A DNA stretch of 33,233 nucleotides from Fibrobacterota bacterium (GTDB taxonomy: Bacteria > Fibrobacterota > Fibrobacteria > UBA11236): contig JAHFCH010000053.1 of assembly GCA_023249635.1 (NCBI GenBank), positions 1 through 33,233 of the forward strand, written 5' to 3'. A program made the position numbers and the translations under genes. This document shows positions 3,532 through 29,812 of this stretch, in pieces; position 1 is the stretch's first letter; each line of letters opens with the position of its first letter. The notes beneath the pieces were generated by a model that worked only from the letters and a program-made list of their open reading frames with translations, did no database searches and was not told where the DNA came from.

Positions 3532-3537
3532 GCGGCC

Positions 3538-5022: not shown

Positions 5023-5033
5023 ATTTCCCTCGG

Positions 5034-5057
5034 CCATGTTCCCCATTGGGAACATGG
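5034..5057 (-). promoter_or_regulatory. perfect 10-bp inverted repeat in the leader of the ATP-grasp gene
   Basis: Arms CCATGTTCCC (5034-5043) and GGGAACATGG (5048-5057) are exact reverse complements around a 4-base loop. In the minus-strand transcript the hairpin ends two bases before the GAGGG ribosome site at 5027-5031. It could control translation of the ATP-grasp and alpha-E genes, stabilise the 3' processed RNA, or serve as an operator. The role is inference; the symmetry is seen directly. Confidence 0.6.
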
Positions 5058-5181
5058 ATAACAAGCAAGCTCCGATCCAAGGCCAAATCCCCGTAAATCC
5101 GCGGAACACGGATCGAGAAGCCGGCTATTGGGAAAAAGTGTCGTGAAATGTCGAGGGTGCCGGGACCAGCGGATGCAAGTG

Positions 5182-6057
5182 TCAATTCCGCAAAACGTCG
5201 ACTTCCACTTTCAGGGTCTGGGTTCCACCCCCGTATAGGACCCCCCGCAAAGGGCTTACGTCGGAAAAATCCCGACCCCAGGCCACGGTTACGTGGCGGG
5301 GGCCGGGGAGCATTTCGTTGGTGGGATCGAAATCCACCCAACCGCCGCCGGAAACGTACACGGAGACCCAGGCATGGGAGGCGTCCGTGCCCATGAGCTT
5401 CGGCTTACCGGGCGGGGGCAGGGTTTCCAGGTAGCCGCTTACGTAACGGGCCGGTAACCCCAAAGCGCGCAGGCCTCCGATCATGAGATGGGAAAAATCC
5501 TGGCACACGCCGCTGCGGTTCTGGAACACCGTTTCCAGGGCCGTGGAAGGATTCGTGGAACCGGGACGGAATCGGAAGTCGCGGTGGATGCGCTGCATCA
5601 AGTGCGCGGCGGCTTCGCCCAGCGGACGGCCCGCCGGAAAGGACCGCACCGCATACTCCTTGAGTCCCGGGAAAGTGCGCACCATCGGCGACTCCAGGGC
5701 GAATTGCAGAGCGTCGCGGGCCTCGTCGCTTTCGGCGTGCTGGGACCGGCGGACCGCTTCTTCCCAGGCAGGCGCGGGGGGCGGTGCATCGGCTTCCGCC
5801 CACGAGACATCGACGCGGCTGGAAGCCGTAATGGTAAAAGTCTTGTGTGGCCGCTGCAGCAGAAAGAAGGAGGTGGGGTTTCCGAAGCAATCCTCGGCTT
5901 CCTCATACCCCTCTAATCCGGGATCCGATTCCAGCGAGAAGTTCAAGAGACGCTGGCCGGGCAAATCCCGCGGCCGCAGACGCGCCTGGTTGACGCTGGC
6001 GTCCACTTCGTCCGCGTAGGCATATACGGTGCGGTGGCGGATGGAGAGAATCGGCAT
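5182..6057 (-). CDS. bacterial transglutaminase-like cysteine protein (COG1305)
   Basis: A 291-residue protein with the two usual parts: a bacterial transglutaminase N-terminal beta domain (residues 1-85, starting MPILSIRHRTVYAY) and a papain-like transglutaminase core. The triad is visible as Cys185 in SGVCQDFSH, His228 in DASHAWVSVY and Asp244 in WVDFDPTN. No signal peptide, so cytoplasmic. Such proteins act as peptidases or acyl transferases; beside ATP-grasp and alpha-E genes they are predicted to cleave or transfer the peptide the ligase makes. ATG 6057 lies 2 bases after the stop of the fused ATP-grasp gene; ATG 6069 would overlap it by 10 bases and adds MGLS, which the family lacks. 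About 160 bases without a gene separate it from the next start. Confidence 0.93.
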   Translation of the reverse strand: MPILSIRHRTVYAYADEVDASVNQARLRPRDLPGQRLLNFSLESDPGLEGYEEAEDCFGNPTSFFLLQRPHKTFTITASSRVDVSWAEADAPPPAPAWEEAVRRSQHAESDEARDALQFALESPMVRTFPGLKEYAVRSFPAGRPLGEAAAHLMQRIHRDFRFRPGSTNPSTALETVFQNRSGVCQDFSHLMIGGLRALGLPARYVSGYLETLPPPGKPKLMGTDASHAWVSVYVSGGGWVDFDPTNEMLPGPRHVTVAWGRDFSDVSPLRGVLYGGGTQTLKVEVDVLRN

Positions 6058-6059
6058 GC

Positions 6060-8630: not shown

Positions 8631-8646
8631 GGGAGAGTCAATAATA

Positions 8647-11600
8647 CTACACCGGTTCCCGCATATCGAGGGTGAAGGGATGATCCCGATGGTTCCGGAT
8701 TTCCGGAAAGACCACCACGCCCGGGGTGTGTCCGAATTCTTCGAAGCGCGCGGCCCGGCGCGCCTCGGCCTCGGACGCGTTCACCGGGAAGCTGGCGTAA
8801 TTGCGACCCGCGGGGTGCGCCACATGGTAGGTGCATCCGCCCAGCGAGGATCCATTCCAGATGTCCACCAGTTCGAAGGTCAGCGGCGCGTGCAGCCCGA
8901 TGAGGGGATGCAGGGCGGAATGGGGTTGCCAAGCGCGGTAGCGGAGGCCCGCCACGGATTCGCCGCGCACGCCGGTATCGGTTAGCGGCAGGGGCCGGCC
9001 ATTGCAATGGACCCGATGCCGTCGATTCAGGATGCCTTCGACCTTTATCTGCAAACGCTCCAAGGAGGAATCCACGAAGCGCGAAGTGCCTTGGCCGGAA
9101 GCTTCCTCGCCCAGCACGGGCCAGGGTTCCCCGGCCGCGCGCAACTCCAGCTTCACCCCGTCGACCATGGTTTCCCCCGCGACCGGGAAACGGAATTCCA
9201 GAAAGGGGCGGTACCAAGATGGATTCAGATCATGTCCGCCCTGGGAAAGGTAGGCGAGGATGTCCAGTAGATCCTTCCATAAGAAATGCGGCAGCATCCA
9301 GCGATCATGGAGCGAAGCGCCGAAGGGCTGCAGCGGGGCCGCGTACGGCTTGTCCCAGAAGCGCGCGATCAGGGCCCGCACCAAGAGGCATTGGGCGGCA
9401 TTCATGCGCGCATGCGGGGGCATCTCGAAGCCGCGCAACTCGACCAGGCCCAACCTTCCGGTAAGGCTGTCGGGGCTATGCAGCTTGTCGATGCAGATCT
9501 CCGCCCGATGGGTGTTTCCCGTCAAGTCCACCAACAGGTTGCGGAAGATGCGATCCACCTGCCACGGGAAAGGCGCGGCGGTCCCGGCCGGGGAATGCGC
9601 GTCCACCTGGGAGAAGGCCAGCGCCATTTCGGAAAGCATGTCGTCACGGGCTTCGTCCGCTCGGGGCGATTGGCTGGTGGGCCCTATGAAGAGCCCCGAG
9701 AAGAGGTAGGACAGGCTGGGGTGGTTCTGCCAGAAATTCACTACGCTGCGCAAAAGGTCCGGGCGCTTGAGGAAGGGGCTATCGGCGGGGCGTTGGGCCC
9801 CGAGGACGATATGGTTGCCTCCCCCGGTGCCGGTATGCCGTCCATCCAGCATGAACTTCTCCGCGCCCAGGCGACATTCGCGCGCTTCCTCGTAGAGGAT
9901 TTCCTGCCGGGTCACCAGTTCGCGCCATGTCGAGGCGGGATGGATATTGACTTCGATGACGCCCGGATCCGGGGTGATGGAATACCGGATCAGGCGGTCG
10001 TCATGGGGCGGCGCATAGCCTTCCACCCGCACGGGCAGGGCCGATTCCGACGCCGCGGCCTCGATGGCGGCCGTCAGATCCAGGAAGGATTCCAGATCCG
10101 GCACCGGGGGCAGGAATACCCACAGGAACCCTTCCCGCGCTTCCACGCATAATGCGGTACGCACGGTTTTCCCGGGTACCAACGGCTCGGCCGGATTCTC
10201 CTTGCGTGCGCCGGATAGGATGGGAGCGGCCACTCGCATTGACTCGGTCTCCGCCGGCTTTTCTAGCGGTACGGGCAGCTCGGGCCGGTCGGCGAGGGGA
10301 GAGAGTTCCGCCGCAAAAGCGGAATCCGCGTCGGCGGGCAGGCTGGCCAGGGGCAGGCGGAAACCCAAGGGTGAATCCCCCGGCAACAGGAAAATATGGC
10401 CGCGACGCATTTCCCAAGTACTGGATTCCCACCGCGTGCGGTTTCCGTCGAAGCGGGCGCGCAAGGGGAGGATGTATCCGGCGGCTTTCTCAAGTCCCCC
10501 TTCCAGCAGCTTGAAAAGCCGGCTGCGTTCGGAATGATCCTTGAGATCGGATTTCAAAGGATCGATATCGACCGGGAGCTTGCCCTCTTGCCACAGATAA
10601 TGGTAGACGTCTTCGAATGCGGGCTGCGGCCATTTTTCCTCAAGGCCCAGGCGGCGGGCCAACGCACGGGAAAACCGCTTGGCGTCCTCGGATGTAAGAC
10701 CGGGAGAAGGTACCCGCGCCTGCCATCGATCGGAATTCCATACGGGGCGGCCGTCGCGGCGCCAGTATGTCGTCAGGGCCCAGCGGGGAAGGGGCTCGCC
10801 GGGGTACCATTTCCCCTGACCGTAATGGATGAGCGAACCCGGAGCGTAGCGGCTCTTGAGCCGCCAAAGCAGATCTTGGGCCAGGGCATACTTGCGGGTC
10901 CCCAACGCGGCGGTATTCCATTCCGGCGCGTTGCGATCGTCGATGGATACGAAGGTGGGTTCGCCGCCCTGGGTGAGCCCCAGGCCGGAGGCACGCATGG
11001 CTTCGTCCACGCTGTCCCCGGCCCGCAAGAGACTTTCCCACTCCGCTTCGGTATAGGGCGCGGTTACCCGCGGAGCGCCTTCCAGGCGCCGGAGTTCCAT
11101 CTCGAACCCGAATTCGGTTTTGCAATCCGAGGTGCTTCCGGTGATGGGCGCCGCGTCCTCGGGCGAAGGCGTGCAGCTCAAGGGGATATGGCCTTCTCCC
11201 GCCATCAGGCCCGAAGTGGGATCCAGCCCAACCCATCCCGCGCCTGGTACGAAGGCCTCGGTCCAGGCGTGCAGGTCGGTGAAATCCTGCCCGGGCCCCG
11301 CGTCCCCCTCCAAAGGTTTCTGATCGGGCCGTAGTTGGATCAGGTAACCGGATACGAAACGCGCGGCGATGCCCAAGCGTCGCAAGGTATGCACCAGCAG
11401 CCAGGCGGAGTCGCGGCAGGAGCCTGAGCCCTTGGACAGGGTCTCTTCGCAGGTCTGCACACCGGCTTCCATGCGTATCGTATAGCGCACCTGTCCCAGT
11501 ACCTTCTGGTTGATGCGCACCAGGAAGTCCACCAGGTTGCCGCCGCTGCGGTCGAGTCCGTCCATCCACTCCTTGAAGCGGGCGCCTTCTTCACGTTTTT

Positions 11601-11955
11601 CCAGGTAGGGGCGCAGGGATTCGCGCAACTCGGGCGCATACGTGAAGGGGTATTTCTCCGCTTCCGGTTCCACGAAGAAATCGAAGGGATTGATGACGGT
11701 GGTATCGGCGATAAGGCCGACTTCGATATGGAACCGGCGCACCTCTTTGGGAAAGACCACACGCGCGATATGATTGCCGTATGGGTCCTGCTGCCAATTG
11801 ATGAAGTGGCCTTCCGGCTCGATTTTGAGCGAATAGGCCTCGATGGGGGTGCGGGTATGCGCTGCCGGACGCAGGCGGATCCACTGGGGCGACAGCGTTA
11901 CCGGTCGATCGTAGCTGTAGGTCGTTTTGTGGCGGAGGGAAACCCGAATTGACAT
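8647..11955 (-). CDS. transglutaminase-like protein with DUF2126 domain
   Basis: A large cytoplasmic protein of 1102 residues and the first gene of the operon. Residues 1-85 form the transglutaminase N-terminal domain (MSIRVSLRHKTTYSYDRPV). The catalytic core has Cys180 (GSGSCRDSAW), His229 (DLHAWTEAF) and Asp245 (GWVGLDPTSG). From about residue 300 to the end is DUF2126, with TQGGEPTFVSIDDRN at its start and TGTGGGNHIVLG in the middle. Proteins of this build are a standard member of the ATP-grasp/alpha-E operons. The role of DUF2126 is unknown; its many conserved acidic and His residues hint at a metal-dependent or ligase-like fold, which is inference. Start ATG 11955 fits the family; there is no good ribosome site. 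A TTG at 12000 would add 15 residues. Confidence 0.93.
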   Translation of the reverse strand: MSIRVSLRHKTTYSYDRPVTLSPQWIRLRPAAHTRTPIEAYSLKIEPEGHFINWQQDPYGNHIARVVFPKEVRRFHIEVGLIADTTVINPFDFFVEPEAEKYPFTYAPELRESLRPYLEKREEGARFKEWMDGLDRSGGNLVDFLVRINQKVLGQVRYTIRMEAGVQTCEETLSKGSGSCRDSAWLLVHTLRRLGIAARFVSGYLIQLRPDQKPLEGDAGPGQDFTDLHAWTEAFVPGAGWVGLDPTSGLMAGEGHIPLSCTPSPEDAAPITGSTSDCKTEFGFEMELRRLEGAPRVTAPYTEAEWESLLRAGDSVDEAMRASGLGLTQGGEPTFVSIDDRNAPEWNTAALGTRKYALAQDLLWRLKSRYAPGSLIHYGQGKWYPGEPLPRWALTTYWRRDGRPVWNSDRWQARVPSPGLTSEDAKRFSRALARRLGLEEKWPQPAFEDVYHYLWQEGKLPVDIDPLKSDLKDHSERSRLFKLLEGGLEKAAGYILPLRARFDGNRTRWESSTWEMRRGHIFLLPGDSPLGFRLPLASLPADADSAFAAELSPLADRPELPVPLEKPAETESMRVAAPILSGARKENPAEPLVPGKTVRTALCVEAREGFLWVFLPPVPDLESFLDLTAAIEAAASESALPVRVEGYAPPHDDRLIRYSITPDPGVIEVNIHPASTWRELVTRQEILYEEARECRLGAEKFMLDGRHTGTGGGNHIVLGAQRPADSPFLKRPDLLRSVVNFWQNHPSLSYLFSGLFIGPTSQSPRADEARDDMLSEMALAFSQVDAHSPAGTAAPFPWQVDRIFRNLLVDLTGNTHRAEICIDKLHSPDSLTGRLGLVELRGFEMPPHARMNAAQCLLVRALIARFWDKPYAAPLQPFGASLHDRWMLPHFLWKDLLDILAYLSQGGHDLNPSWYRPFLEFRFPVAGETMVDGVKLELRAAGEPWPVLGEEASGQGTSRFVDSSLERLQIKVEGILNRRHRVHCNGRPLPLTDTGVRGESVAGLRYRAWQPHSALHPLIGLHAPLTFELVDIWNGSSLGGCTYHVAHPAGRNYASFPVNASEAEARRAARFEEFGHTPGVVVFPEIRNHRDHPFTLDMREPV

Positions 11956-12083
11956 GGAAAAACGCAAGCGCAAGTCTTGGGCCAGCCCCCCTGATGACAA
12001 AACGACCCGATTGTCAGGAGATGGGGAGAATTTGCCATATTGGGGTTGACGCTAACCTACACTTCGGGACAATTGCTCCGGGG

Positions 12084-12130: not shown

Positions 12131-14638
12131 CTAGAGCGTGTTCAGGAACCGGATGACGGCATCGGCGTCGGCCGGCGGCATCGCCTTGAAGGCGTTCGCC
12201 GACTTCTCCGCTTCGCCGCCATGCCATAGGATGGCTTCCTTGATTGTCCGGGCGCGGCCATCGTGCAGGAAGCTGGCGCCGCCGCTCACGCTGTCCGAGA
12301 GGCTGATGCTCCATAGCGGCGCGGTGCGCCATTCCGCTCCGGTGGCCATGCCCTCGGGCAGATTGTCGGCGAGGCCGGGGCCCATGTCGTGCAGTAGCAG
12401 ATCGGTATAGGGATGGATGGTCTGGTTGCGGAGTTCCGCTTTGGGGTGATAAGCGCCAGTCGTCGCCGTGGGCACGTGGCAGGCCGCGCAACCCGCGGTC
12501 GCGAAGAGGGTTTCGCCATGCAGCGCTACGGGATCCGCGTAGTCGCGGCGGGCTGCGACACCGAGCAGGCTGACATAGTCCACGAGGTGGGTAAGATTGC
12601 TGTCGGCGAGTTCACTACCGGAGGCATTGCCGCAATCGGTCTGTTCCGAACCGCAGTCGGGCTTGGGCATGATGGAAGTCATCACGCCCATGTCGCTGTT
12701 GAAGGCGCCTGCCACCTGGTGCGCGACGGCGGCTTTGCCGGCCTTCCACCCGAAGCGGCCCATGCGCGGTAGTCCCGATTGCGGGTCGGCGACGATGTTC
12801 ACGCGTCCCGAGATCCCGTCGCCGTTGGCATCGTCCGGATCGGCAAGCCCTTGCACGAAGGTTTCCGGGATGGCTTCCAGCAATCCCAGCCCGACCAGTT
12901 GCGGCGAGGAGCGGACCGAGAAATTGCTGGGTACGGGTCCGCCTTCGAAGGAGTAGGTAGGCTTGCGCAGGCCGTTGCTTTCGACCCAGGCTGCGAGCTT
13001 GGCGTAGCCTTCGGCGCTGACGCCGGCGCTTTGCGGCTGCAGTACCGAGCCCAGCTTGGGATGGGGATTGCCGTTGGCGTCGCCCACCTTGACCACGGAT
13101 GTATACAGGGCCGCGCCGGCGACGGGAGGCAGGGAGCGTCCGTTGCGGGTATGGCATGAGCTGCAGGATGCGTTGATGTAGTGAGGGCCGGATTTGCCGG
13201 CGTTTTCGGTCCACACGGGATTGTCCGGCTCGTCATGGGCGCCGGTGGTGAATTGGGTATGCAGGACGCGGCGACCCAATACGAAATTCTGCCCGTTGAG
13301 GGAGGAGAGGTTCTGGGCCAGTTCCATGAACCGGAACGGGGGCTCATTGGAGTATTGGTAGGGTAGGGTGGTACGTCCGCCCATCCAGGCCACCTCCGGC
13401 AAAGGATAGGAGTCTTCCCGTTCCGTGGTCAGATCGCCGAATACGCCTTTGGTTTCGAACGGCACGAAGCCTTTGCCTACGATATAGAGCACGGCGGTGC
13501 CGTAATAGTTCTTGCGGCCCTCCAGCTTGTCGCCTTTGGAATCGACTTCGGCGAGGAACTGGCTGATCTCCATTTCGATCTTGTCCCCGACTTTCAGGGG
13601 GCGCTTCACGGCGTCGCGGTTGTTGGGCCCCAGGGAATAGAAACCGTCGATGGTGTTGGTGTACTTGAAGCGTTCGCCGGGAACGAGTTTCATGTGCGGC
13701 GCGTAGATGTACTCGGCGACCGTGCCTACCCCGCGGTAGAAGGCGCGGAACTCTTCCGTGCCGGGGTTCAGCTCCCATTGGGTGGTCATTTTCACGTCGA
13801 TATGGTCCCCGCCCTTGGCCACGTAGTCGATGAATTCGAAGGCCGCCGTGCGGTGCGCCCAGTAATGGGGCAGGTAATGATCGTAGATGTGGTACTGGTC
13901 TTCGCGGGCATGGCGATCGCGCGCGCGATCGGACCAGCGGGTGATGAAGGCGGTGGGCGTCTCCTCGTACACGTCCGGTTCCCGTGTGGTGCTGTTGTCG
14001 AACAAGGGAACCAGGGTCAGCTTGCTGAAGTCAATTGTCAGGGAAGTGCCGTCCTTGATCTGGTAGACCTGGGTGGGAAGTCCGGATTTTCCGCAAGTGA
14101 TGACGGCGCCTTCGGACGCGGACGCGGCGGTCTTGGCGGCAATGGATCCCATCCCTAAGCCGGCGGGGACGCTTTCGAAATCGATCCCTTTGCCGAGATT
14201 CACGAATCGGCCTTTGGCCGCAAAGGAGGGACTGGTGATCGATACGAGGTATATGCCTTTGTCATTGCGCGGGAATGCGACGCGTTCGCCCAGGGAGAAT
14301 TTTCGGCGCAGCATTTCCTGGCCGCGCAGATTCGAGAGAATGATCGTGGCCGCCTCTCCGGGTGCCAGAGGGATGCGGGAAAGCAAACGTCCATCAGCGG
14401 CCGCGCGTTGCGTCCGGAAGAGGGAGACGATATTCGCCAGCTTCAGCTTCCCCGCGGCATCGGATACCGCGGCCGAGCCCCCGGCCTGACTGCAACTGAC
14501 GCCCGCGATGGGAACGCCTTTGCCGTCTTGGATCAGGATGTCAATGTCGCACCAGGCGTTCCTTGATCCCATCCCGAGCAGAAAAATCGTGGTTGCAGTC
14601 CGAAAAAACGAGCGCGTTCCAGCCATGGTGTTACCCAT
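12131..14638 (-). CDS. exported di-heme cytochrome c oxidoreductase (DHOR, DUF1111 type)
   Basis: An 835-residue exported protein. The C-terminal half matches the di-heme oxidoreductase family. Two heme c sites are visible: CSSCH near residue 490 (INASCSSCHTRNGRSLPP) and CAACH near residue 715 (TAGCAACHVPTATTG). Family blocks FGWKAGKAAVAHQ, FLHDGRARTI and ILWHGGEA are also present. The family is thought to act as a periplasmic peroxidase-like or thiol-oxidoreductase-like electron carrier. The N-terminal half is unusual: after the signal peptide comes a carboxypeptidase-regulatory-like beta domain (about 25-110), then about 250 residues I cannot place (HIYDHYLPHYWAHR, YIYAPHMKLVPGERF). ATG 14638 has AGGA 7 bases upstream and starts a signal peptide (FFRTATTIFLLGMG). 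A longer frame upstream adds 55 residues of no merit. Separated from the fibro-slime gene by 216 bases. Confidence 0.88.
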   Translation of the reverse strand: MGNTMAGTRSFFRTATTIFLLGMGSRNAWCDIDILIQDGKGVPIAGVSCSQAGGSAAVSDAAGKLKLANIVSLFRTQRAAADGRLLSRIPLAPGEAATIILSNLRGQEMLRRKFSLGERVAFPRNDKGIYLVSITSPSFAAKGRFVNLGKGIDFESVPAGLGMGSIAAKTAASASEGAVITCGKSGLPTQVYQIKDGTSLTIDFSKLTLVPLFDNSTTREPDVYEETPTAFITRWSDRARDRHAREDQYHIYDHYLPHYWAHRTAAFEFIDYVAKGGDHIDVKMTTQWELNPGTEEFRAFYRGVGTVAEYIYAPHMKLVPGERFKYTNTIDGFYSLGPNNRDAVKRPLKVGDKIEMEISQFLAEVDSKGDKLEGRKNYYGTAVLYIVGKGFVPFETKGVFGDLTTEREDSYPLPEVAWMGGRTTLPYQYSNEPPFRFMELAQNLSSLNGQNFVLGRRVLHTQFTTGAHDEPDNPVWTENAGKSGPHYINASCSSCHTRNGRSLPPVAGAALYTSVVKVGDANGNPHPKLGSVLQPQSAGVSAEGYAKLAAWVESNGLRKPTYSFEGGPVPSNFSVRSSPQLVGLGLLEAIPETFVQGLADPDDANGDGISGRVNIVADPQSGLPRMGRFGWKAGKAAVAHQVAGAFNSDMGVMTSIMPKPDCGSEQTDCGNASGSELADSNLTHLVDYVSLLGVAARRDYADPVALHGETLFATAGCAACHVPTATTGAYHPKAELRNQTIHPYTDLLLHDMGPGLADNLPEGMATGAEWRTAPLWSISLSDSVSGGASFLHDGRARTIKEAILWHGGEAEKSANAFKAMPPADADAVIRFLNTL

Positions 14639-14854
14639 CCCTCTATCCTGTAGTCCCCCCGGACCCGGTCCGACCCTCCCGCGCATGGGAATCGATCGAA
14701 CCCGCCTATGATGATAGGGGCGATTGAGAGCAAATTGTGAGCGGCACTTGCGCTTGGGCGGGGTCAAGAGGGCCCGGTACCCTGCGCGATATCGAGGGAG
14801 CAATTCGCCGCTACGTCGGCGATCGGTTTCCGGATGCCAAGCCGGCCGCGCCGG

Positions 14855-22595: not shown

Positions 22596-24161
22596 TCAGG
22601 GCGAGGGGGAGCGGCGGAGGATGCCCAGTCCCGAAAACCCGGGTCCGGCGCGGCGTCCGCGGAGATCATGGATCGGATAATCCGCGGAGTACGCCTCGCA
22701 CCCCGGTTCCGGGCATAGAACCAGCCGGTATCCGCGCGGGTCGGTAAGGCGTTCAGCGCGATGACCGGAGGCCGCATGGGGTAACCCCGTAGTTACCTTG
22801 CCTCCCTTCAGGACCAGGGCCGGGCTCTTGGCGCCGGCGAGCCCGGACCAGTTTACCGTGGCCACCTGATAGCTATAGGTGGCGGTGTCGTTGAGGTTCG
22901 CATCGGCATAGGCCATGGCGGGAGCCTGGGAGGGCGCGGGCTGGTCGCCATCCTGCCAACGCTGGAACCCCTTCTCCGTGGTGAAATACGTGCTGGTGCC
23001 TTCGAATTTCAAGGTGGTCAGCAATACGCCATTGCGGTAGATTTGGAAAGTCTTGATGCCCGTCTCCAGATCCGCGTCCGCATCCCATTTCAAACCCAGT
23101 TGCCGACCGGCATAGGTTCCGGTGAGGTTCGCCGGCGGCGGGGGAGGCGAGGTATCGTTGAGGGTACCCTGCTCCATGTATTCCGCCCATTTGGCCGCGA
23201 AGCCGCGGTTGGGCAGCCAGCAGGCGCCTTGCCGCCCGCCCGCGAAGTCGGCCACGGCCGCGATGGCGCGCGTTCCCTTGTCCCCCAGCCAGGCCGAAGC
23301 CGTATCCATCTCCTTCAGCTTCGCGGCTCCCGGCGAATCGGGAAGCCGCGCGGCCAGTCCCGCTTCGAGCCAGGGGATGGCGATCATTCGTAGGTCATGG
23401 GGAGCGTGGCCTTCCACGTCGGCGGGAAAAGCGGTAGGGGCGGTGACCCAGAGTGGATTGGGATTGACGGCATGGGCCCACAGTGCGCCCTTGGCGCGCC
23501 CGGCGGCGAAGTAGGTGTCGTTGTAGCACATGTCCTGCTTGCCGTTATGGTGGAGGATGGGCACCCGTAACGCGCCGGGTACCCCGGATACGTCGCGGCC
23601 GCAGGCTTCCGCCACTCCGGCCGCCACCCGCTCCGGGTATTTCCCCGTCATCGAGGTGATCCACATGGAACCGCCCGAATGCCCCCACAAGGCCCAAGGC
23701 ACGGTCTTGATCTCGGGGTGGCCCGAGCGCCGCGCCAGGGAATCCAAGGCGGCCAGGAAGGTGGATTCGCTGCCGTTGGCGGGATCGTTCCAGTTGCTGC
23801 ATTGCGAGCTGCCCGATCCGGGCGCGCCCGTGATCAGCTTGGGGGCGATGAAAACGGAATGCCATTTCTTCGCGAAGCTCAACCATTGCAGGTCGCCCAG
23901 CATCTGTTGCGCGTCCCCTTCGCGGGTGCAACCATGCTGATGCACGATGATGCTGCGCACCGTGCCGACCTCGGCGGGAACCCAGCAATAATAATAGGCG
24001 TCCGCGTATAGGGTGCCTTGCTTGGGAACGCCGAACTGGATGACGGTGCCTTGCGGTCCGGCAGCCTGGGCTGAGAGGACGGCCGCGGCCAGGACCGAGG
24101 CGGAAAATGCAGTGGACAATCCAGCGGACAATACCCAAGGCCGGCTTTGGAAAATGCGCAT
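22596..24161 (-). CDS. secreted alpha/beta hydrolase (depolymerase/feruloyl-esterase-like) with Fn3-like domain
   Basis: A 521-residue exported protein. A signal peptide ends near SAQAAG. The hydrolase core has the oxyanion-side HQHGCTREGD block and the nucleophile elbow WGHSGGSMW (Ser near residue 162). Candidate Asp (HHNGKQDMCYND) and His (VEGHAPHDL) residues follow. This matches PHB-depolymerase/feruloyl-esterase-like secreted esterases; the substrate is uncertain. A Pro-rich linker (SPPPPPANLTG) leads to a fibronectin-III-like domain (LGLKWDADADLETGIKTFQ, then TATYSYQVATVNWSG). The last 70 residues do not look like Fn3; they end with IHDLRGRRAGPG, similar to a secretion-sorting tail. ATG 24161 has GGGAGG 5 bases upstream. 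It ends 139 bases before the FAD gene. Confidence 0.85.
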   Translation of the reverse strand: MRIFQSRPWVLSAGLSTAFSASVLAAAVLSAQAAGPQGTVIQFGVPKQGTLYADAYYYCWVPAEVGTVRSIIVHQHGCTREGDAQQMLGDLQWLSFAKKWHSVFIAPKLITGAPGSGSSQCSNWNDPANGSESTFLAALDSLARRSGHPEIKTVPWALWGHSGGSMWITSMTGKYPERVAAGVAEACGRDVSGVPGALRVPILHHNGKQDMCYNDTYFAAGRAKGALWAHAVNPNPLWVTAPTAFPADVEGHAPHDLRMIAIPWLEAGLAARLPDSPGAAKLKEMDTASAWLGDKGTRAIAAVADFAGGRQGACWLPNRGFAAKWAEYMEQGTLNDTSPPPPPANLTGTYAGRQLGLKWDADADLETGIKTFQIYRNGVLLTTLKFEGTSTYFTTEKGFQRWQDGDQPAPSQAPAMAYADANLNDTATYSYQVATVNWSGLAGAKSPALVLKGGKVTTGLPHAASGHRAERLTDPRGYRLVLCPEPGCEAYSADYPIHDLRGRRAGPGFSGLGILRRSPSP

Positions 24162-24231
24162 AGGAACCTCCCTGAGCCCGCAAGGTAGCCGGGGAAAGGG
24201 CCTACCGGGCGGAACCCCGGGAACCGGTGTT

Positions 24232-24310
24232 TACAATTGTATCCATCAGGGGTGATTTCCATCGGATTTTCGCGGATCCGCCTGTATAAGCAGGGGTGCG
24301 GCTTTATACA
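24232..24310. promoter_or_regulatory. divergent intergenic region with two inverted repeats
   Basis: The 175-base gap between the divergent hydrolase (-) and ThuA (+) genes must hold both promoters. It contains a perfect 10-base palindrome TACAATTGTA (24232-24241). It also has an inverted repeat TGTATAA (24283-24289) / TTATACA (24304-24310), whose centres are 21 bp apart, two helical turns. TATA-like hexamers in the arms could double as -10 boxes. No convincing -35 was found, so roles are inference. Confidence 0.4.
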
Positions 24311-24336
24311 TTTCCTGCCCTGGGGGGCTCCGGCAA

Positions 24337-25248
24337 ATGAGGACCATGAAAATCATGAACATCCGTCGCACCACTGCATTGCTGCTCGGCGCCTTGGGCG
24401 CCTCTAGCCTGGGTTGCGCCGCCTCGGCGTTCGCCGCCGATCGCATCCTCATTTTCACGCGCACGGAAAAATACCGCGAGGACAATATCACGCCGACCCG
24501 CGCCATGCTGCGCAACTTCTACGCGGGAAAAGGCCTGACCGTGGATACCTCGGAGACGGCGGGCCTCTTCACCGATACCACCCTGGCCAAGTACAAGGCG
24601 GTGGTCTTTCTCAAGACCAGTGGCAACGCCCTGAGCGATGAGCAGCAGGCCGCCTTCGAGAAATGGTTCAAGGCCGGCGGCGGTTTCCAGGCCATCCATT
24701 CGGCGTTGGATACCGAATACGATTGGCCCTTCTACGGAAAGATGATCGGCGGCGCCTGGTTCAAGTCCCTGCCCGGCGACATGAACACCAAGCAAACCGA
24801 AGTGGTCGAGGATAGCACCGACATTTCCACCAAGGCCTTGCCGCGCAAATGGGAACGCACCGACGAGATCTACGCCTTCAAGGCCAACCCCCGCGCTGCC
24901 GTCGATCCCGTCCAGCATATTCTCGTGACGGTGGACGAATCCACTTTCAAGAACGGGGTGCCGGGAACGGATCATCCCATGAGCTGGTATTGCGCGTATC
25001 AGGGCGGTAGGGCCTGGACCACGGCCATGGGGCATGTGACCGGGGCCTATGCCGATAGCTTGTTCTTGGGACACCTGTGGGGCGGGATGCAGTACTTGCT
25101 CGGGCGTACCACTTCTGTTTCGGCCAATACGGGCGGCGTCAAGCACACGCCCGAAGCTAAACGTGCATGGATGCCTTCCGGGGTCCGCTTTGGCGTGGAG
25201 TTCTTTGAAGACGCAGTTGGCCGGAAAAGAAACAAAAACGCGCGCTGA
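24337..25248 (+). CDS. exported ThuA-domain protein
   Basis: A 303-residue protein with a signal peptide (ALLLGALGASSLGCAASAFAAD) and a ThuA (class I glutamine-amidotransferase-like) domain. Seen: DRILIFTRTEKYREDN at the first strand, VVFLKTSGNALSDEQQAAFE, then GGGFQAIHSALDTEYDW, and near the end WYCAYQGGRAWTTAMGHV and LGHLWGGMQYLLG. ThuA proteins are linked to sugar catabolism; catalysis is not settled, though 3-keto-glycoside metabolism is proposed. SPI cleavage after AFA is more likely than lipoprotein cleavage at SLGC. Starts at 24337 and 24346 are both possible; the second has GAGGACC directly before it. The dehydrogenase and DUF1080 genes 2 kb downstream, across an inserted-looking gene, belong to the same functional theme. 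The tail (VGRKRNKNAR) has no sorting motif. Confidence 0.9.
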   Translation: MRTMKIMNIRRTTALLLGALGASSLGCAASAFAADRILIFTRTEKYREDNITPTRAMLRNFYAGKGLTVDTSETAGLFTDTTLAKYKAVVFLKTSGNALSDEQQAAFEKWFKAGGGFQAIHSALDTEYDWPFYGKMIGGAWFKSLPGDMNTKQTEVVEDSTDISTKALPRKWERTDEIYAFKANPRAAVDPVQHILVTVDESTFKNGVPGTDHPMSWYCAYQGGRAWTTAMGHVTGAYADSLFLGHLWGGMQYLLGRTTSVSANTGGVKHTPEAKRAWMPSGVRFGVEFFEDAVGRKRNKNAR

Positions 25249-25375
25249 GCATCAGGCCACTCGATTAATTAATACTCCATCGTGTTAGGCCTGGTTTACA
25301 GAATCGAAGGTCTTTTCAGAATCGTCACTCTTTGGAAAACCCAAAAGTGCCAATGTGGGTATTGAACCAACACAA

Positions 25376-25403
25376 TTGACTATTTTCAGTCGAGTAGTAA
25401 TTT
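25376..25403 (+). promoter_or_regulatory. weak promoter candidate upstream of the lipase-like gene
   Basis: TTGACT (25376-25381), 16-base spacer, TAATTT (25398-25403), in an AT-rich 188-base gap that begins after the ThuA stop. The -10 match is poor, so this is only a candidate. Confidence 0.25.
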
Positions 25404-25436
25404 CGAAATCTTACTCTAATTTTTATTGGGGATTAT

Positions 25437-26870
25437 GTGAACGCAAGAATTTTGGTAAAGCTTGCTTTTTGGTTGAGCGTTTTTTGCATTCCTGTACTAT
25501 CCAGCGACGAAATCTATACTCAAAGTTTTTTCGAGAAAAAATCCGCGGGTACCAAAAACCTCGTCGTATTCCTCCACGGAGTGCTTGGGGACGCAAGAAC
25601 GACTTGGACGGATGAAGGCACAAAAAGATTCTGGCCGATGCTGGTCAGGTATGATTCGTTGTTCAATTCCTTTGATGTCCTTTGTCTTGGCTACCACACT
25701 CCGTTCTTTAGCCGCTCCTTAACAATCGAGGAGACTGCGACAAAGCTCCTATCGGACTTCACGGACGAGACATCACGATATAGGAATATCGTGTTTGTGT
25801 GCCACAGTATGGGTGGCATTCTTGCAAAACGAATGTTGATTTGCGCTAGCCGGAGCGAACCAGACTTATACGCAAAGATAAAAGGCGTGGTATTTCTTTC
25901 GAATCCTGCGAACGGATCCGAAGTCGCTCATCTCGCGGCCTTCATAAAGGTTAGTCCTCAAATGCACGGCATGGATCCAATTGTCTTTAATGACTATTTG
26001 CAATCCGTTGAGAATGATTGGTTTGCCTTGATGCGAAATAGAACCCAGCCAAAAATGTATCCAATGGCTTTTTGCGCGTATGAAAAGTTGAAGTACTTGG
26101 GCGTAGTTGTCGTTGACAGGGATCTCGCGATTTCAACTTGCGATAATCCACTTTACGCTTTCCCCAGGAACCATTCCACCATTGTAAAACCGGTTGGATA
26201 TAGCGACGAGGTGTACAGATGGACTCGGTACAGGATTTTCGAATCGATGAACATGACTTCAAAACTATCGCTCACCGCGAAATCAGAGCAGATCCCGTTG
26301 CCACAGGATACCGGGGGTACCCTGATTCCTATTTCTGGAACGGAGATGGAAAAAATCTCCTCTTTAGGGTCAGAAATAATTGATTTCCGACCTGACCCTC
26401 ATTCCAAAAATTTTTCTGAGGACGTGGTGCGGAATTACCCTATCCGAGCAGAAAAAATCGAATGCAAACAAGGAGCTTGCGACTTATTTGTCGGAAAGAT
26501 AGAGCAATTAACTGAAAATTCCTTTCGTGTAAGAATTGTTTTTTCGACCGCTAAAATACCCGGTACTCGATTATCGGGGGCGAACCTAAATGAATTACCA
26601 ACCAGTTGGCAGGTTACCGCCGAGAAGTATGAACGTACGTTGAGCGTGAAATACGATACCCTGCAAGCGGTACCTTGGAACAGGGGAAAGCCTGCTGTTG
26701 TCGTTTATCCGAACGCGGCAAAGTTTATGAGCTTGGTTCTAAAATCCATGGATGTCAACTATGTGGCCGACCTTCAAAACCTTGTTGGGAAGGAACCATT
26801 TTTCGTTCTAGATAAAAGCACGGCTACGGATGGGGTCCATTACATACTCCAAACCAGAAAAGCCGAATAA
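25437..26870 (+). CDS. exported alpha/beta-hydrolase (PGAP1/DUF676-like), AT-rich
   Basis: A 477-residue protein from a GTG start with GGGGA 4 bases upstream. An N-terminal hydrophobic stretch (residues 6-22) acts as a signal. The hydrolase fold shows the oxyanion motif LVVFLHGVLGD (HG at 47-48), the nucleophile elbow FVCHSMGGILAKRM (Ser124), Asp227 (VVVDRDLA) and His246 (RNHSTIVKP), a complete triad. This resembles lipase/PGAP1-like serine esterases acting on lipids or lipid-linked esters. The last 200 residues (from about 275) are unplaced, with Lys/Glu-rich strands. Base composition is far more AT-rich than both neighbours, and Cys and Lys are more frequent. Both are seen directly and point to transfer from another genome. 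It interrupts an otherwise coherent sugar-metabolism cluster. Substrate unknown. Confidence 0.85.
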   Translation: MNARILVKLAFWLSVFCIPVLSSDEIYTQSFFEKKSAGTKNLVVFLHGVLGDARTTWTDEGTKRFWPMLVRYDSLFNSFDVLCLGYHTPFFSRSLTIEETATKLLSDFTDETSRYRNIVFVCHSMGGILAKRMLICASRSEPDLYAKIKGVVFLSNPANGSEVAHLAAFIKVSPQMHGMDPIVFNDYLQSVENDWFALMRNRTQPKMYPMAFCAYEKLKYLGVVVVDRDLAISTCDNPLYAFPRNHSTIVKPVGYSDEVYRWTRYRIFESMNMTSKLSLTAKSEQIPLPQDTGGTLIPISGTEMEKISSLGSEIIDFRPDPHSKNFSEDVVRNYPIRAEKIECKQGACDLFVGKIEQLTENSFRVRIVFSTAKIPGTRLSGANLNELPTSWQVTAEKYERTLSVKYDTLQAVPWNRGKPAVVVYPNAAKFMSLVLKSMDVNYVADLQNLVGKEPFFVLDKSTATDGVHYILQTRKAE

Positions 26871-27083
26871 GAAATCTCCGGGGCCTCGGCGCAGCCATTA
26901 TCCCTCTTTATATCGGAATTAACTCTTTAGAATTTTTCACCCCCTGAGACCGACCCGCGCCGCTTGGGAAGCTTGGGCGCGCCCGGCGGCGCCACGCATC
27001 CTTTGCTGCGCTTATCGCAACGCTTATTTCCCCTAAGCAATACCGCCCTCTCCACTCGGGCATATATTCACTGCAATCGGAAT

Positions 27084-27088
27084 GGAGG
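27084..27088 (+). promoter_or_regulatory. ribosome binding site deciding a TTG start
   Basis: GGAGG seven bases before TTG 27096 in the sugar dehydrogenase frame; no such site precedes the upstream ATG 26964. Confidence 0.6.
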
Positions 27089-27095
27089 GGGAAGG

Positions 27096-28799
27096 TTGCA
27101 AAGCATTCGCTGGATCGCGATGGTGGTATTCTCGGTTTCGGGCGCGCCGTACTCCCAAAGTTGCCTTGCTCCCGAGACCTATGTCCCGCTGGCGGGGGAT
27201 TTCGACGTGCAAACCATCATCCCGAACAATACCCTTGATCAACCGATGACTATGGCCATCGCGCGCGATGGCCGCGTGTGGGCCGGCCAGCGGGACGGGG
27301 TCATCTACTCCTATGCGCCCGCAGCGGGTTGGAAATCGGATACCGCCGCCGCCTTGGACGTTTACCTCTATGTGGATGGCGCCTATGATATGGGCGGGCT
27401 TTGGGGAATGGCCTTGAGCCCGAGCTTCGCCGCGGACGGCTGGATGTACCTGTACTACCCTCCGCGTTCCTTGTGGAACGGGAAATCCGATCATAGCGGC
27501 CGCCTTACCTATCGTCTCTCCCGGTTCCAGGTGACCTCCGCGAACAAATTGAACGCGGGTTCGGAGCAGGTGCTGCTTAGCGTGGAGCAGATGACGGAAA
27601 CGCATAACGGCGGTTCGCTGAAGTTCGGGAAGAACGGTGACCTGTACCTTTCCACGGGCGACAACCATCGGCCCGGGTGCGGTGACGCGTACCCGCCGAC
27701 GGATGAAAACGATGTCACCTGCGATGATGGCGCTACGACGGCGAATACGGACACCTTGCTGGGAAAGGTGCTGCGCATCCATCCGGAAGCGAACCTGGTG
27801 GCCGGGAAGTATTACACCATCCCCGCCGGTAACCTTTTCCCGATAGGAACACCCAAGGCCCGGCCCGAGATTTACACCATGGGGCATCGTAATCCGTTCA
27901 AGATCTTTCCGGATCCCGTCACGGGAAGGCTTTACGTACCCATGTTCGGGCCGGGCCATGGCGACGATCCCGTGCGCGGGCCCAAGGGCGGCGATGTAGT
28001 CGAGGTGACGGATTCGGCGGCGAATTTCGGATACCCTTATTTCCTCAAGGCCAGGCAGCCGTATTGCCATTGGGACTACGCGGCCAAATCCTGCACCCCC
28101 ATTCCTGGGCATGCGGGCGTCTTCTTCGATCCGGATCATCCGGTAAATCCTTCCAAGAACAATACCGGCTTGGTCGATTTGCCTCCGGTCAAGGCGGCCG
28201 TGATGTGGCAAGGCGACTCCCTTACCGGCATAGGCGGCTGCGGCTGGGGCGCGGGCGAAGTCTACCATTTCGATCCCTCCCTCAACTCGGGCGCCAAGTT
28301 CCCCCCGTATTTCAACGGCAAATGGTTGCTTTTCGATATCGCGGGAGTGGGAAACCATCTGATCAGCATGGCCCCATCGCCGTCGCCGGTGGCAGCCATT
28401 TCCAAAAAGCAGATCGCCAATCCGCCCTGGGGCGGGCTTGGGAATTTCAGCGGCAACATCATGGAAATGCTGTACGGCCCCGGAGACGGCGCGCTCTACG
28501 TGCTCGACTATGGGGCGGCCTTCTATGCCAAGAACCAGAGCGCGTCCCTGAAGAAAATCATCTATAAGGGGTGCCTGCCGGCTACCGCGTTGGCGCACCC
28601 ACGGAAGCAATTGGCGGCGAATGCGGGCATGCTCTCATTCGGCGGGCGCGCATTGTCGCCTCCGGCGGGATCGCGTAAAATGCAGGTGTTCGATCTATCG
28701 GGGAAAATGGTTTTCGGGAAGGATCTGTCGCCGGCCAATCCAGGGCGGATCGAAATGCCCGGTCTGGGCTCCAATCTGCTTTGGGTGGTTTTCCAGTGA
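27096..28799 (+). CDS. exported glucose/sorbosone-dehydrogenase-like beta-propeller protein
   Basis: A 567-residue exported protein, start TTG 27096, with a signal peptide (IRWIAMVVFSVSGAPYSQ). The body is the six-bladed propeller of the glucose/sorbosone dehydrogenase (GSDH) family: PMTMAIARDGRVWAGQRDG, GLWGMALSPSF, NGGSLKFGKNGDLYLSTGD, and IYTMGHRNPFKIFPDPVTG before GGDVVEVTDSAANFGYP. Such proteins oxidise sugars using PQQ or related cofactors in the periplasm. Many Cys residues (YCHWDYAAKSC, GGCGWGAG) suggest disulfides. The last 50 residues (LSPPAGSRKMQVFDLSGKM to the end, GSNLLWVVFQ) resemble a secretion-sorting tail. The stop overlaps the next start (GTGA), so DUF1080 is translationally coupled. 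A 225-base gap without a gene precedes it. Confidence 0.86.
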   Translation: MQSIRWIAMVVFSVSGAPYSQSCLAPETYVPLAGDFDVQTIIPNNTLDQPMTMAIARDGRVWAGQRDGVIYSYAPAAGWKSDTAAALDVYLYVDGAYDMGGLWGMALSPSFAADGWMYLYYPPRSLWNGKSDHSGRLTYRLSRFQVTSANKLNAGSEQVLLSVEQMTETHNGGSLKFGKNGDLYLSTGDNHRPGCGDAYPPTDENDVTCDDGATTANTDTLLGKVLRIHPEANLVAGKYYTIPAGNLFPIGTPKARPEIYTMGHRNPFKIFPDPVTGRLYVPMFGPGHGDDPVRGPKGGDVVEVTDSAANFGYPYFLKARQPYCHWDYAAKSCTPIPGHAGVFFDPDHPVNPSKNNTGLVDLPPVKAAVMWQGDSLTGIGGCGWGAGEVYHFDPSLNSGAKFPPYFNGKWLLFDIAGVGNHLISMAPSPSPVAAISKKQIANPPWGGLGNFSGNIMEMLYGPGDGALYVLDYGAAFYAKNQSASLKKIIYKGCLPATALAHPRKQLAANAGMLSFGGRALSPPAGSRKMQVFDLSGKMVFGKDLSPANPGRIEMPGLGSNLLWVVFQ

Positions 28800-29812
28800 A
28801 GACGCTACCCTTTCTTGGCATGGCGCTGCTGGGAATTTTCTCCGCCGCGCACGAGTCGCCAATGCCCACCGTTCCCGTAAGCGCGGATTCGGGTTGGGTG
28901 AAGCTGTTCAACGGAAAGGACTTCGAAGGCCTGTACGTACGCCGCGGCGCGGTGCTGCAGGATCCCGCCACCCAGACCGTCTATAAGATAGAAGGGGATT
29001 CCATCCATGTGCCAGCGGGCGGTGGGGGTTTGCTGACGACTCGGAAAACCTATTCCCGCTACCAGATGCGGGTGAAATACCGCTATGCGGCGACGGGGAC
29101 GGGACAGAACGCCGGCTTGCAATACCATGTGGAACCCACGGATTTCGATGCGACGGAAAAATCCGGATCCCAGAATACGCAGGTGCCCTATTTCTTCGGG
29201 CGAAGCTTCGTGCAATCCATAGAATTCCAAACCTATGTGGGCAATGCGGGCGCCTATATCGGAATCGGAAACCTCTGGGCCCGGACGACGACCGCGGGCG
29301 GGAAATTCTCCCCGGGCGGATCACCGTTTATCGCCACTCCCGATAAGGGCGGGGGCGGCCGCTATATCAATACGGCCAGCCCTAATCTACCCGTCGACTA
29401 TACGAAGTGGGTGCAATGCCAGATCAACGTGTACGGGGCCGACAGCTCCATCCACATGATCAACGGGCAGGTGGTGGTGAAGGCCTGGAAGCTGAGGAAG
29501 GTGGTGAGAACCGCCGGCGGCGGCGCGGACGATTATGCGGGAGATGCGGATACTTCCGCCGCGGTTCCGAACGATATGGGGCATATCGGGCTGCAGGCGG
29601 AAGGCTCGAATATCTTCTATCGCGATTGGGAGATAAGGCTTTTGGATTCCCAGGGGAACCCCATCCTTACCACCACGCTGGCGCACCCCCGCGAAGCGCG
29701 GCGAACCCGGGCCCTGCCTATCGGGTTCGGATCGGGAGCGATGGCGACGCCGAACGGCATGGTGGATGCGGTAGGCAGACGCCGCTTCCCCGTGATGGAT
29801 GCTTCGCGCTGA
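28796..29812 (+). CDS. exported DUF1080 (3-keto-disaccharide-hydrolase-like) protein
   Basis: A 338-residue protein from GTG 28796, whose codon overlaps the stop of the preceding gene (GTGA). A signal peptide (LPFLGMALLGIFSAA) leads to the DUF1080 jelly roll: WVKLFNGKDFEGLYV, LLTTRKTYSRYQMRVKYRY, GQNAGLQYHV, SIEFQTYVGN, WVQCQINVYGADSSIHMING, and DMGHIGLQAEGSNIFYRDWEI. This family is a concanavalin-like sugar-binding or hydrolase fold; some members hydrolyse 3-keto-glycosides. Its pairing with a GSDH-type dehydrogenase and ThuA suggests oxidise-then-cleave sugar chemistry, which is inference. The tail (TTTLAHPREARR, then MVDAVGRRRFP) echoes that of the dehydrogenase. It ends 61 bases before the convergent SPFH gene. 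Confidence 0.9.
   Translation: MKTLPFLGMALLGIFSAAHESPMPTVPVSADSGWVKLFNGKDFEGLYVRRGAVLQDPATQTVYKIEGDSIHVPAGGGGLLTTRKTYSRYQMRVKYRYAATGTGQNAGLQYHVEPTDFDATEKSGSQNTQVPYFFGRSFVQSIEFQTYVGNAGAYIGIGNLWARTTTAGGKFSPGGSPFIATPDKGGGGRYINTASPNLPVDYTKWVQCQINVYGADSSIHMINGQVVVKAWKLRKVVRTAGGGADDYAGDADTSAAVPNDMGHIGLQAEGSNIFYRDWEIRLLDSQGNPILTTTLAHPREARRTRALPIGFGSGAMATPNGMVDAVGRRRFPVMDASR

Follow-up and report, generated by a model that had tools for sequence, protein, structure and literature searches.

The window analysed here, a stretch of 33,233 nucleotides from a member of the Fibrobacterota, carries four genes whose products begin with signal-peptide-like sequences and end in similar C-terminal tails. These encode a PHB-depolymerase-like alpha/beta hydrolase on the minus strand (22596..24161; NF050058 at E=1.3e-7 and TIGR01840 at E=2.3e-6, neither reaching its curated cut-off) and, on the plus strand, a ThuA-domain protein (24337..25248; PF06283 E=1.1e-55), an exported-like glucose/sorbosone dehydrogenase (GSDH; 26964..28799; PF07995 E=8e-28), for which a start downstream of 26964 is probable (gene caller: 27120-28796), and a DUF1080/3-keto-disaccharide hydrolase family protein (28781..29812; PF06439 E=1.2e-20). 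In translation, all four tails contain D-x-x-G-[RK], the motif B or L-beta3-beta4 loop: DLRGR in the hydrolase (22653..22667, minus strand, D 23 residues from the end), DAVGR in the ThuA protein (25210..25224, plus strand, D 12 residues from the end), DLSGK in the dehydrogenase (28692..28706, plus strand), and DAVGR in the abbreviated tail of the DUF1080 protein (29765..29779, plus strand, D 15 residues from the end). The preliminary description had quoted the tails of the hydrolase, dehydrogenase, and DUF1080 protein, all of which are present in the sequence, and had grouped these three as similar; the grouping holds in part, the likeness being real but short, with the ThuA tail as a fourth member that had been overlooked. 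D..G[RK] falls within the last 60 residues in four of the six exported-like window genes called (shuffle mean 0.24, maximum 2 in 300 shuffles) and in none of the eight cytosolic-like ones; an alpha/beta hydrolase gene at 25437-26870 that the gene caller missed, with a signal-peptide-like start and no such tail, would bring the exported-like count to 4/7.

A second shared feature had been proposed in the pentapeptide LAHPR upstream of the dehydrogenase and DUF1080 tails, and it does occur in both, in the linkers before the tails (28590..28604 and 29678..29692, plus strand), a few bases from the positions first given. It is not conserved: searches with the GSDH, the W-tail, and DUF1080 gathered 92 loci, of which four have it in any frame, namely L126 and the three loci that represent the window, and hence one of the 89 loci outside the window's own. 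LAHPR was accordingly rejected as part of a signal and looks like a linker coincidence.

The tails had been likened, with a loose fit, to the C-terminal sorting domains (CTDs) of the type IX secretion system (T9SS), and this likeness was examined with profiles. None of the window tails matches TIGR04183 at E<=10, and the sole match of that model in the window is internal to another gene. Two further profiles were built from tails chosen by eye: A1 from 21 of 31 distinct GSDH tails (the reduced T9SS-type "W-tails"), and A2, which represents the genome's ordinary CTDs, from 20 of 30 TIGR04183 tails, with nine long ones and one internal one omitted. A2 detects the dehydrogenase tail (E=0.0066) and, weakly, the DUF1080 tail (E=0.026), and has no match to the hydrolase (E=19) or ThuA tails (E=110; Z=1000 throughout). 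A1 gives the dehydrogenase tail 61.8 bits in a genome search, a score that is partly circular because the dehydrogenase sequence is in A1, and hhalign aligns A1 with A2 at 95.1% over 44 columns that include motif B. Since 20 of the 22 proteins of its own genome that A1 matches at E<=1e-3 are GSDH proteins, the W-tail is mainly a family feature, and the idea of one tail profile for the whole genome was rejected.

Motif D and the basic motif E were looked for by eye. The dehydrogenase W-tail (28590..28796, plus strand; matched by A1 and A2) has GSNLLWVVF, with neither GxY nor a basic end, and no last basic strand; the hydrolase shows GLGILRR at most, and after its DLRGR stands RAGPGFSGLGILRR, which may be an eroded GxY region; and no GxY is seen in the DUF1080 and ThuA tails. 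The hydrolase, DUF1080, and ThuA tails have no clear motifs A, D, or E. By profile comparison, the tail of the dehydrogenase appears to be a type A CTD of divergent sequence and the only recognizable T9SS CTD among the tails, which is the part of the earlier comparison that stands; for the DUF1080 protein and the hydrolase, the label of T9SS sorting domain is likely to apply in the sense of descent and function and falls short of membership, because motif B is kept and motifs D and E are unclear. Structural comparison, with the seven-stranded Ig-like beta-sandwich of type A CTDs as the reference, gives a mixed picture, with weak models and no significant fold match. In PDB searches, A2 matches the solved T9SS CTDs 8glj, 8glk, 5hfs, and 8qb1 (E 1.5e-4 to 3.4e-4) below a top match to an NHL-repeat protein, and with A1 a haemolysin-related protein (E=0.012) outranks the RgpB CTD 5hfs (0.029). 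A model of the dehydrogenase tail (pLDDT 65, moderate) has four short strands that flank the DLSG turn on both sides and aligns with 8gl8_D (Z 3.5) and 8glk_D (Z 3.4; rmsd 2.4; 51 and 53 aligned residues) amid many unrelated beta folds; the model of the full dehydrogenase is poor (pLDDT 36), and Foldseek returned no match at E<=0.001.

The 6.75-Mb genome encodes the machinery that such tails would need. A search for T9SS genes of the PorU and SprA kind, suggested in the preliminary description, found SprA (635.2 bits) and PorU (449.5 bits), each joined by adjoining pieces, as well as PorV (154.9 and 107.2 bits); every one of these scores exceeds a curated cut-off that none of 14 control genomes passed. 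Full-length sorting tails are also present, with 26 TIGR04183 tails above the cut-off (two only when adjoining pieces are included; one of the 14 control genomes also passes it), so that neither similar tails nor the machinery is missing from this genome. The motor models for GldM and GldN (TIGR03517, TIGR03523) have no matches here, a silence that is uninformative because the same models match none of the 14 controls.

The motif derived from the window was then counted in a sample of 1,386,099 of 6,751,321 bases (20.5%), which comprised at most the first 20 kb of every sixth contig, together with the chosen contigs C319, C332, and C10. Genes, signal peptides, and membrane segments were called by simple scripts of our own rather than by standard predictors, and the cytosolic-like class includes some missed signal peptides. 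The counts leave out proteins with a predicted membrane segment, genes that were not closed, and bodies shorter than 150 residues. With all tails included, D..G[RK] lies in the last 60 residues of 29/178 exported-like versus 12/228 cytosolic-like proteins in the first sample (p=4e-4) and of 25/129 versus 12/162 in the second (p=0.003), before which this test had been fixed. Under limits chosen post hoc from the tails of both samples, as were the removal of CTD-profile hits and the form D[AL].GR, the motif starts 5-35 residues from the end in 30/266 exported-like versus 11/378 cytosolic-like proteins with CTD-profile hits removed (p=2e-5), and 5-16 residues from the end in 11/266 versus 2/378. 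Counting homology clusters once leaves 25/204 versus 10/316 (p=6.7e-5). The carriers include GH28, GH43, pectate-lyase-like, GDSL, and acetylesterase proteins (Pfam scan, 10/30 carriers), and lipobox proteins carry tails of either kind less often (3/32 vs 68/275, p=0.035).

These counts bear on the simplest alternative, namely that GC-rich exported tails often yield D, G, and R and that the likeness is accidental. The motif consists of three fixed letters only, about 3% of cytosolic-like proteins carry it 5-35 residues from the end, there is a weak excess of N..G[RK] (7/266 vs 3/378, p=0.064), and the relative G005 alone, a smaller sample, gives no significant difference either in the last 60 residues (9/59 vs 10/123, p=0.19) or with CTD hits removed (6/55 vs 7/119, p=0.19). 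Accident is nevertheless very improbable in view of composition-preserving shuffles, which yield a mean of 5.0 and a maximum of 11 in 500 against the 30 observed, of permuted or respaced motifs, which are not significantly enriched, and of 40-residue windows from the interior of these proteins, where D..GR occurs in 34/1578 compared with 30/266 for the final 40 residues (p=2e-10; the interior window at residues -240 to -200 has a raised background of 7/164, p=0.008 vs the tails); moreover, both samples agree. Of the 30 short tails, some 6 to 8 would be expected from the internal or cytosolic rates.

Homologues indicate how such tails may have arisen. Relatives of the GSDH, DUF1080, and ThuA proteins bear full, reduced, or abbreviated tails within one enzyme; in the DUF1080 relatives these are full, W-type, and abbreviated. 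A same-genus homologue of the hydrolase (L130, 64% identity) has a longer tail, DVRGT...RMLIIRSG; ThuA homologues from five same-genus genomes (59-68% identity) read DASGR or DARGR or, without the D, YLPTGR, YQASGR, and WSLSGR, so that only GR is left in three of six, a remainder that G/R-rich tails can yield by chance; and some ThuA relatives have no tail whatever. Such variation would be expected if the tails were vestigial, that is, former full CTDs of enzymes that no longer use the T9SS, with motif B the last part to erode. This main rival is further favoured by the residues after the motif, which appear unconstrained: R and P stand at twice their body frequency, and lengths and sequences vary freely. 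We consider it possible and on the whole unlikely, since two observations count against neutral decay, which predicts neither. Among 19 homologous exported pairs, D..GR is found in both members in five, in one in two, and in neither in 12 (p=0.003, with the test chosen post hoc), which in sequence terms means that the motif tends to be kept while its flanks diverge; and R is strict over K, with 30 D..GR to one D..GK among the abbreviated tails. Nor is there support for a recent frameshift or truncation having produced the short tails, and this too speaks against vestigial tails: GxY in another frame follows 2/33 short-tail genes versus 33/386 controls, and no significant profile match to an out-of-frame CTD remnant was obtained downstream of the short-tail genes.

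The same strictness has a second possible meaning, for GR is stricter in the abbreviated tails than in CTD-profile tails (30:1 vs 16:6, p=0.016) and the motif may start as few as 7 residues from the C-terminal end, as might be the case if DxxGR were an independent C-terminal tag for addressing or processing, unrelated to the T9SS and read by another factor such as a protease or sortase that cuts near GR. That abbreviated tails share enzyme families and positions with full CTDs, and that the L130 homologue shows an intermediate form, makes such a tag improbable.

We favour descent from the T9SS signal: the tails of these exported sugar and ester enzymes may well be reduced descendants of a type A T9SS CTD, abbreviated with motif B kept and still engaged with the T9SS. 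Against this reading, the abbreviated tails mostly lack the basic motif E and also motif D, a loose G-x-[YFWH] being present after the motif in 4/30; the W-tail is nearly confined to one enzyme family; and published findings on motifs D and E, given below, fit it poorly. The dehydrogenase would retain a compact CTD (strand, DxxG turn, strand, and final strand), and the DUF1080 protein, hydrolase, and ThuA protein little beyond the D-x-x-G-R turn of motif B. Each enzyme would be exported by Sec through its predicted signal peptide, the turn of motif B in its periplasmic tail would then serve as the contact for the T9SS, at PorV/SprA or at the motor, and the enzyme would be moved to the surface, perhaps with trimming by PorU. 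A stronger form, that D-[AL]-x-G-R, placed anywhere between a few and some thirty residues before the C-terminus, suffices in Fibrobacterota as a minimal T9SS tag without a folded CTD or motifs D and E, which are currently regarded as essential, is doubtful. If it were true, roughly 100-150 enzymes in this genome would be missed by current profiles (30 per 20.5%, scaled, minus the chance share); the counts suggest that standard searches overlook many proteins with shortened tails, and cargo lists based on TIGR04183 would undercount the secreted polysaccharide enzymes of Fibrobacterota.

What the T9SS recognizes is itself unsettled in the literature, and tails that keep motif B and have lost the rest amount to a natural experiment on what the system reads. 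The DxxGR motif corresponds to the FDMNGRR loop of RgpB, which one study presents as essential, with its replacement or a G699R change blocking secretion; the same study mentions an earlier G699P change without significant effect and notes that T. forsythia mirolase does not conserve the loop motif (PMC11285876). A review instead stresses motifs D and E, reporting the last 13 residues as needed and the last 22 of HBP35, which hold both motifs, as sufficient (PMC10202324), and according to a cryo-EM study, the type A motifs set the fold and make no contact with the translocon save for a C-terminal Lys (PMC10994853). Among the literature matches listed, none describes motif-B-only tails in its title or the start of its abstract.

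Set against known systems, the tails most resemble the T9SS type A CTD (TIGR04183/PF18962) in their C-terminal position on signal-peptide proteins, in the D-x-x-G-[RK] of motif B, and in sharing a genome with the machinery and full examples, and in the dehydrogenase also in the strands retained after motif B; they differ in the missing TIGR04183 match and, for the hydrolase, DUF1080, and ThuA tails, in the lack of clear motifs A, D, and E. The short CTDs of Prevotella intermedia, as described in PMC11969387, run 40-51 residues from the cleavage site, place 1-6 residues between motifs B and D, and retain a basic motif E together with GxY (or GxN). By eye, the hydrolase alone comes near that succession of motifs B, D, and E within such a length, its tail DLRGRRAGPGFSGLGILRR having a similar order; unlike the Prevotella tails, 11/266 proteins here have the D just 5-16 residues from the end. 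A third comparison, made here by description, is with the basic terminal domain (Fpm-1) of Fibrobacter succinogenes, a member of the same phylum in which basic C-termini on secreted polysaccharide enzymes have been proposed as T9SS signals; that domain spans ~90 residues in one example (821-910), far more than the abbreviated tails (PMC6851124).

The three exported proteins whose tails a preliminary description had likened, loosely, to C-terminal domains (CTDs) of type IX secretion (T9SS), namely a hydrolase (PHB-depolymerase-like, from matches below curated cut-offs), a GSDH-type dehydrogenase, and a DUF1080 protein (the latter two from profile matches), do carry these tails in translation, at positions right to within a few bases, and the core common to them is D-x-x-G-[RK], present as DLRGR, DLSGK, and DAVGR, respectively. 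A fourth exported-looking neighbour, a ThuA protein by profile match that was absent from that description, ends DAVGRKRNKNAR. With genes classed by simple in-house scripts, 4 of the window's 6 called exported-like genes carry the core within their final 60 residues (mean 0.24 when their tails are shuffled), against 0 of the 8 cytosolic-like ones; the signal-peptide-like gene at 25437-26870, missed by the gene caller, is without such a tail. The LAHPR peptide said to be shared upstream is indeed the same in both linkers (28590-28604 and 29678-29692) but is not conserved in relatives; the two linkers belong to adjacent, unrelated genes.

Several other features of the window may be recorded here. 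Two low-GC genes, 25437-26870 (+; alpha/beta hydrolase, 45%) and 114-2072 (+; WD40-repeat protein, 53.5%), stand out from the window's 61%, and both were missed by a gene caller trained on the genome, as might happen with recently acquired genes. A run at 2545-12000 (-) holds Alpha-E, circularly permuted ATP-grasp, transglutaminase-like, and DUF2126 amidoligase-like genes, the ATP-grasp, Alpha-E, and transglutaminase-like domains being present in two copies each.

The source genome (6.75 Mb, 95% complete) was found to hold both the secretion genes and the further tails for which the preliminary description had proposed a search: SprA, PorU, and PorV all score over curated cut-offs, as do 26 matches to the CTD model TIGR04183, any such match occurring in 1 of 14 control genomes. 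Because these genes and tails are present, the proposed type IX resemblance survives the search. At E<=10 the genome has 99 TIGR04183 matches, and at that threshold 13 of the 14 controls match too; models of GldM and GldN match neither this genome nor the 14 controls. Two PorU-like genes adjoin on one contig, one over the T9SS_sortase cut-off and the other, at 356 bits, below it. In the window itself, a CTD-like stretch at 14204-14368 (-), within gene 12131-14803, matches TIGR04183 below cut-off (19 bits, E=0.008) and is internal, ahead of a di-haem oxidoreductase domain; at another locus (L029) a match is likewise internal, and similar sequence follows it.

The dehydrogenase tail belongs to a compact type common among its relatives, roughly PxGAxxAxxFDLxGxKxW...P.L..GLxRVRx (the W-tail). 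A profile of it, A1, was built from 21 of 31 distinct tails, the other 10 being ordinary CTDs, shorter tails, or unrelated, and a second profile, A2, from 20 ordinary short CTDs of the same genome, without window sequences. The two align over 44 columns, motif B included, with 95.1% probability, and A2 scores the window's dehydrogenase tail at E=0.0066 (Z=1000). Searched against the PDB, A2 matches solved T9SS CTDs, yet its top match is an NHL-repeat protein, and A1 matches the RgpB CTD weakly, ranked after a haemolysin-related protein. From these profile comparisons, we take the dehydrogenase tail to be a divergent type A CTD lacking the last basic strand. Matches to the W-tail within the genome fall almost entirely on GSDH paralogs (20 of 22 at E<=1e-3), and two DUF1080 relatives (L106 and L110) apparently carry a W-tail as well. 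The paralogs form a large sugar-dehydrogenase-like set of mixed tail types (31 scored matches to the window dehydrogenase, from 75 initial candidates); in named genomes two relatives of the dehydrogenase were found, both in 'Fibrobacteres bacterium' MAGs.

From 1,386,099 sampled bases of the genome came 845 closed genes whose bodies reach 150 residues or more; 307 were classed exported-like and 390 cytosolic-like. When every tail is counted, D..G[RK] is found within the final 60 residues in 29/178 exported-like vs 12/228 cytosolic-like genes of a first sample (p=4e-4) and in 25/129 vs 12/162 of a second (p=0.003). With CTD-profile matches taken out (41 exported-like, 12 cytosolic-like), the motif stands 5-35 residues from the end in 30/266 vs 11/378 (p=2e-5; by sample, 16/153 vs 7/221 and 14/113 vs 4/157), where 500 shuffles gave a mean of 5.0 and a maximum of 11, and 5-16 residues from it in 11/266 vs 2/378. 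Counting homology clusters once leaves 25/204 vs 10/316 (p=6.7e-5). The last 40 residues of exported-like proteins hold 30 D..GR and 1 D..GK, D[AL].GR alone giving 16/266 vs 2/378, and reversed or respaced versions of the motif show no significant enrichment there in the sampled tails. Pooled internal 40-residue windows of the same proteins have D..GR in 34/1578, one single internal window in 7/164; at internal or cytosolic rates, chance would account for about 6 to 8 of the 30 abbreviated tails. Proteins with a lipobox carry a tail of either kind less often (3/32 vs 68/275). In a relative, G005, the excess does not reach significance (all tails 9/59 vs 10/123; CTD-profile matches out, 6/55 vs 7/119). 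A Pfam scan of 10 of the 30 carriers returned acetylesterase, GDSL, LamG, prolyl-oligopeptidase-like, GH28, GH43, GxGYxYP, and pectate-lyase-like matches, and no match for 2.

The DxxGR of these tails is motif B, the L-beta3-beta4 loop. Our preferred reading, given about an even chance, is that the abbreviated tails are reduced T9SS signals still read via motif B, their secretion being putative; that they are instead vestigial is the main rival, which we consider rather unlikely. Among 19 homologous exported pairs (at least 40% identity), D..GR occurs in both members in 5, in one in 2, and in neither in 12 (p=0.003), and in 4 of those 5 the copies align with each other; the closest pair (75% identical, from the source genome and G005) sets DASGR opposite DAAGR, beyond which the two sequences run on, unlike each other, for 10 and 28 residues. 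Past the motif the tails are rich in R and P with few acidic residues, as would be unconstrained GC-rich sequence, and no frame-shifted CTD remnant was found downstream of the abbreviated tails. The tails of DUF1080 relatives form a graded series, with a full CTD at one extreme and DxxGR alone at the other, and those of ThuA relatives do likewise, a tail being absent altogether from some ThuA relatives. A same-genus hydrolase homolog (L130, 64% identity) keeps a longer tail. ThuA homologs from five same-genus genomes (59-68% identity) align poorly outside the core, which reads DAVGR in the window and DASGR or DARGR in three genomes; in the others (LPTGR, QASGR, SLSGR) just GR is left of the motif and the evidence is weak.

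Published work, as far as the available portions of the sources go, differs on motif B. In RgpB, motif B is FDMNGRR, and its replacement, or a glycine-to-arginine change, stops T9SS secretion, while in T. forsythia mirolase motif B is not conserved (PMC11285876). Against a reading via motif B stand cryo-EM work in which the conserved motifs specify the fold, with no translocon binding (PMC10994853), and a review in which, for one cargo, the C-terminal 22 residues, with motifs D and E, suffice (PMC10202324). Prevotella intermedia has short CTDs that contain hardly more than motifs B, D, and E (PMC11969387); compared with T9SS CTDs, the abbreviated tails described here keep motif B, whereas motifs D and E are mostly lost.
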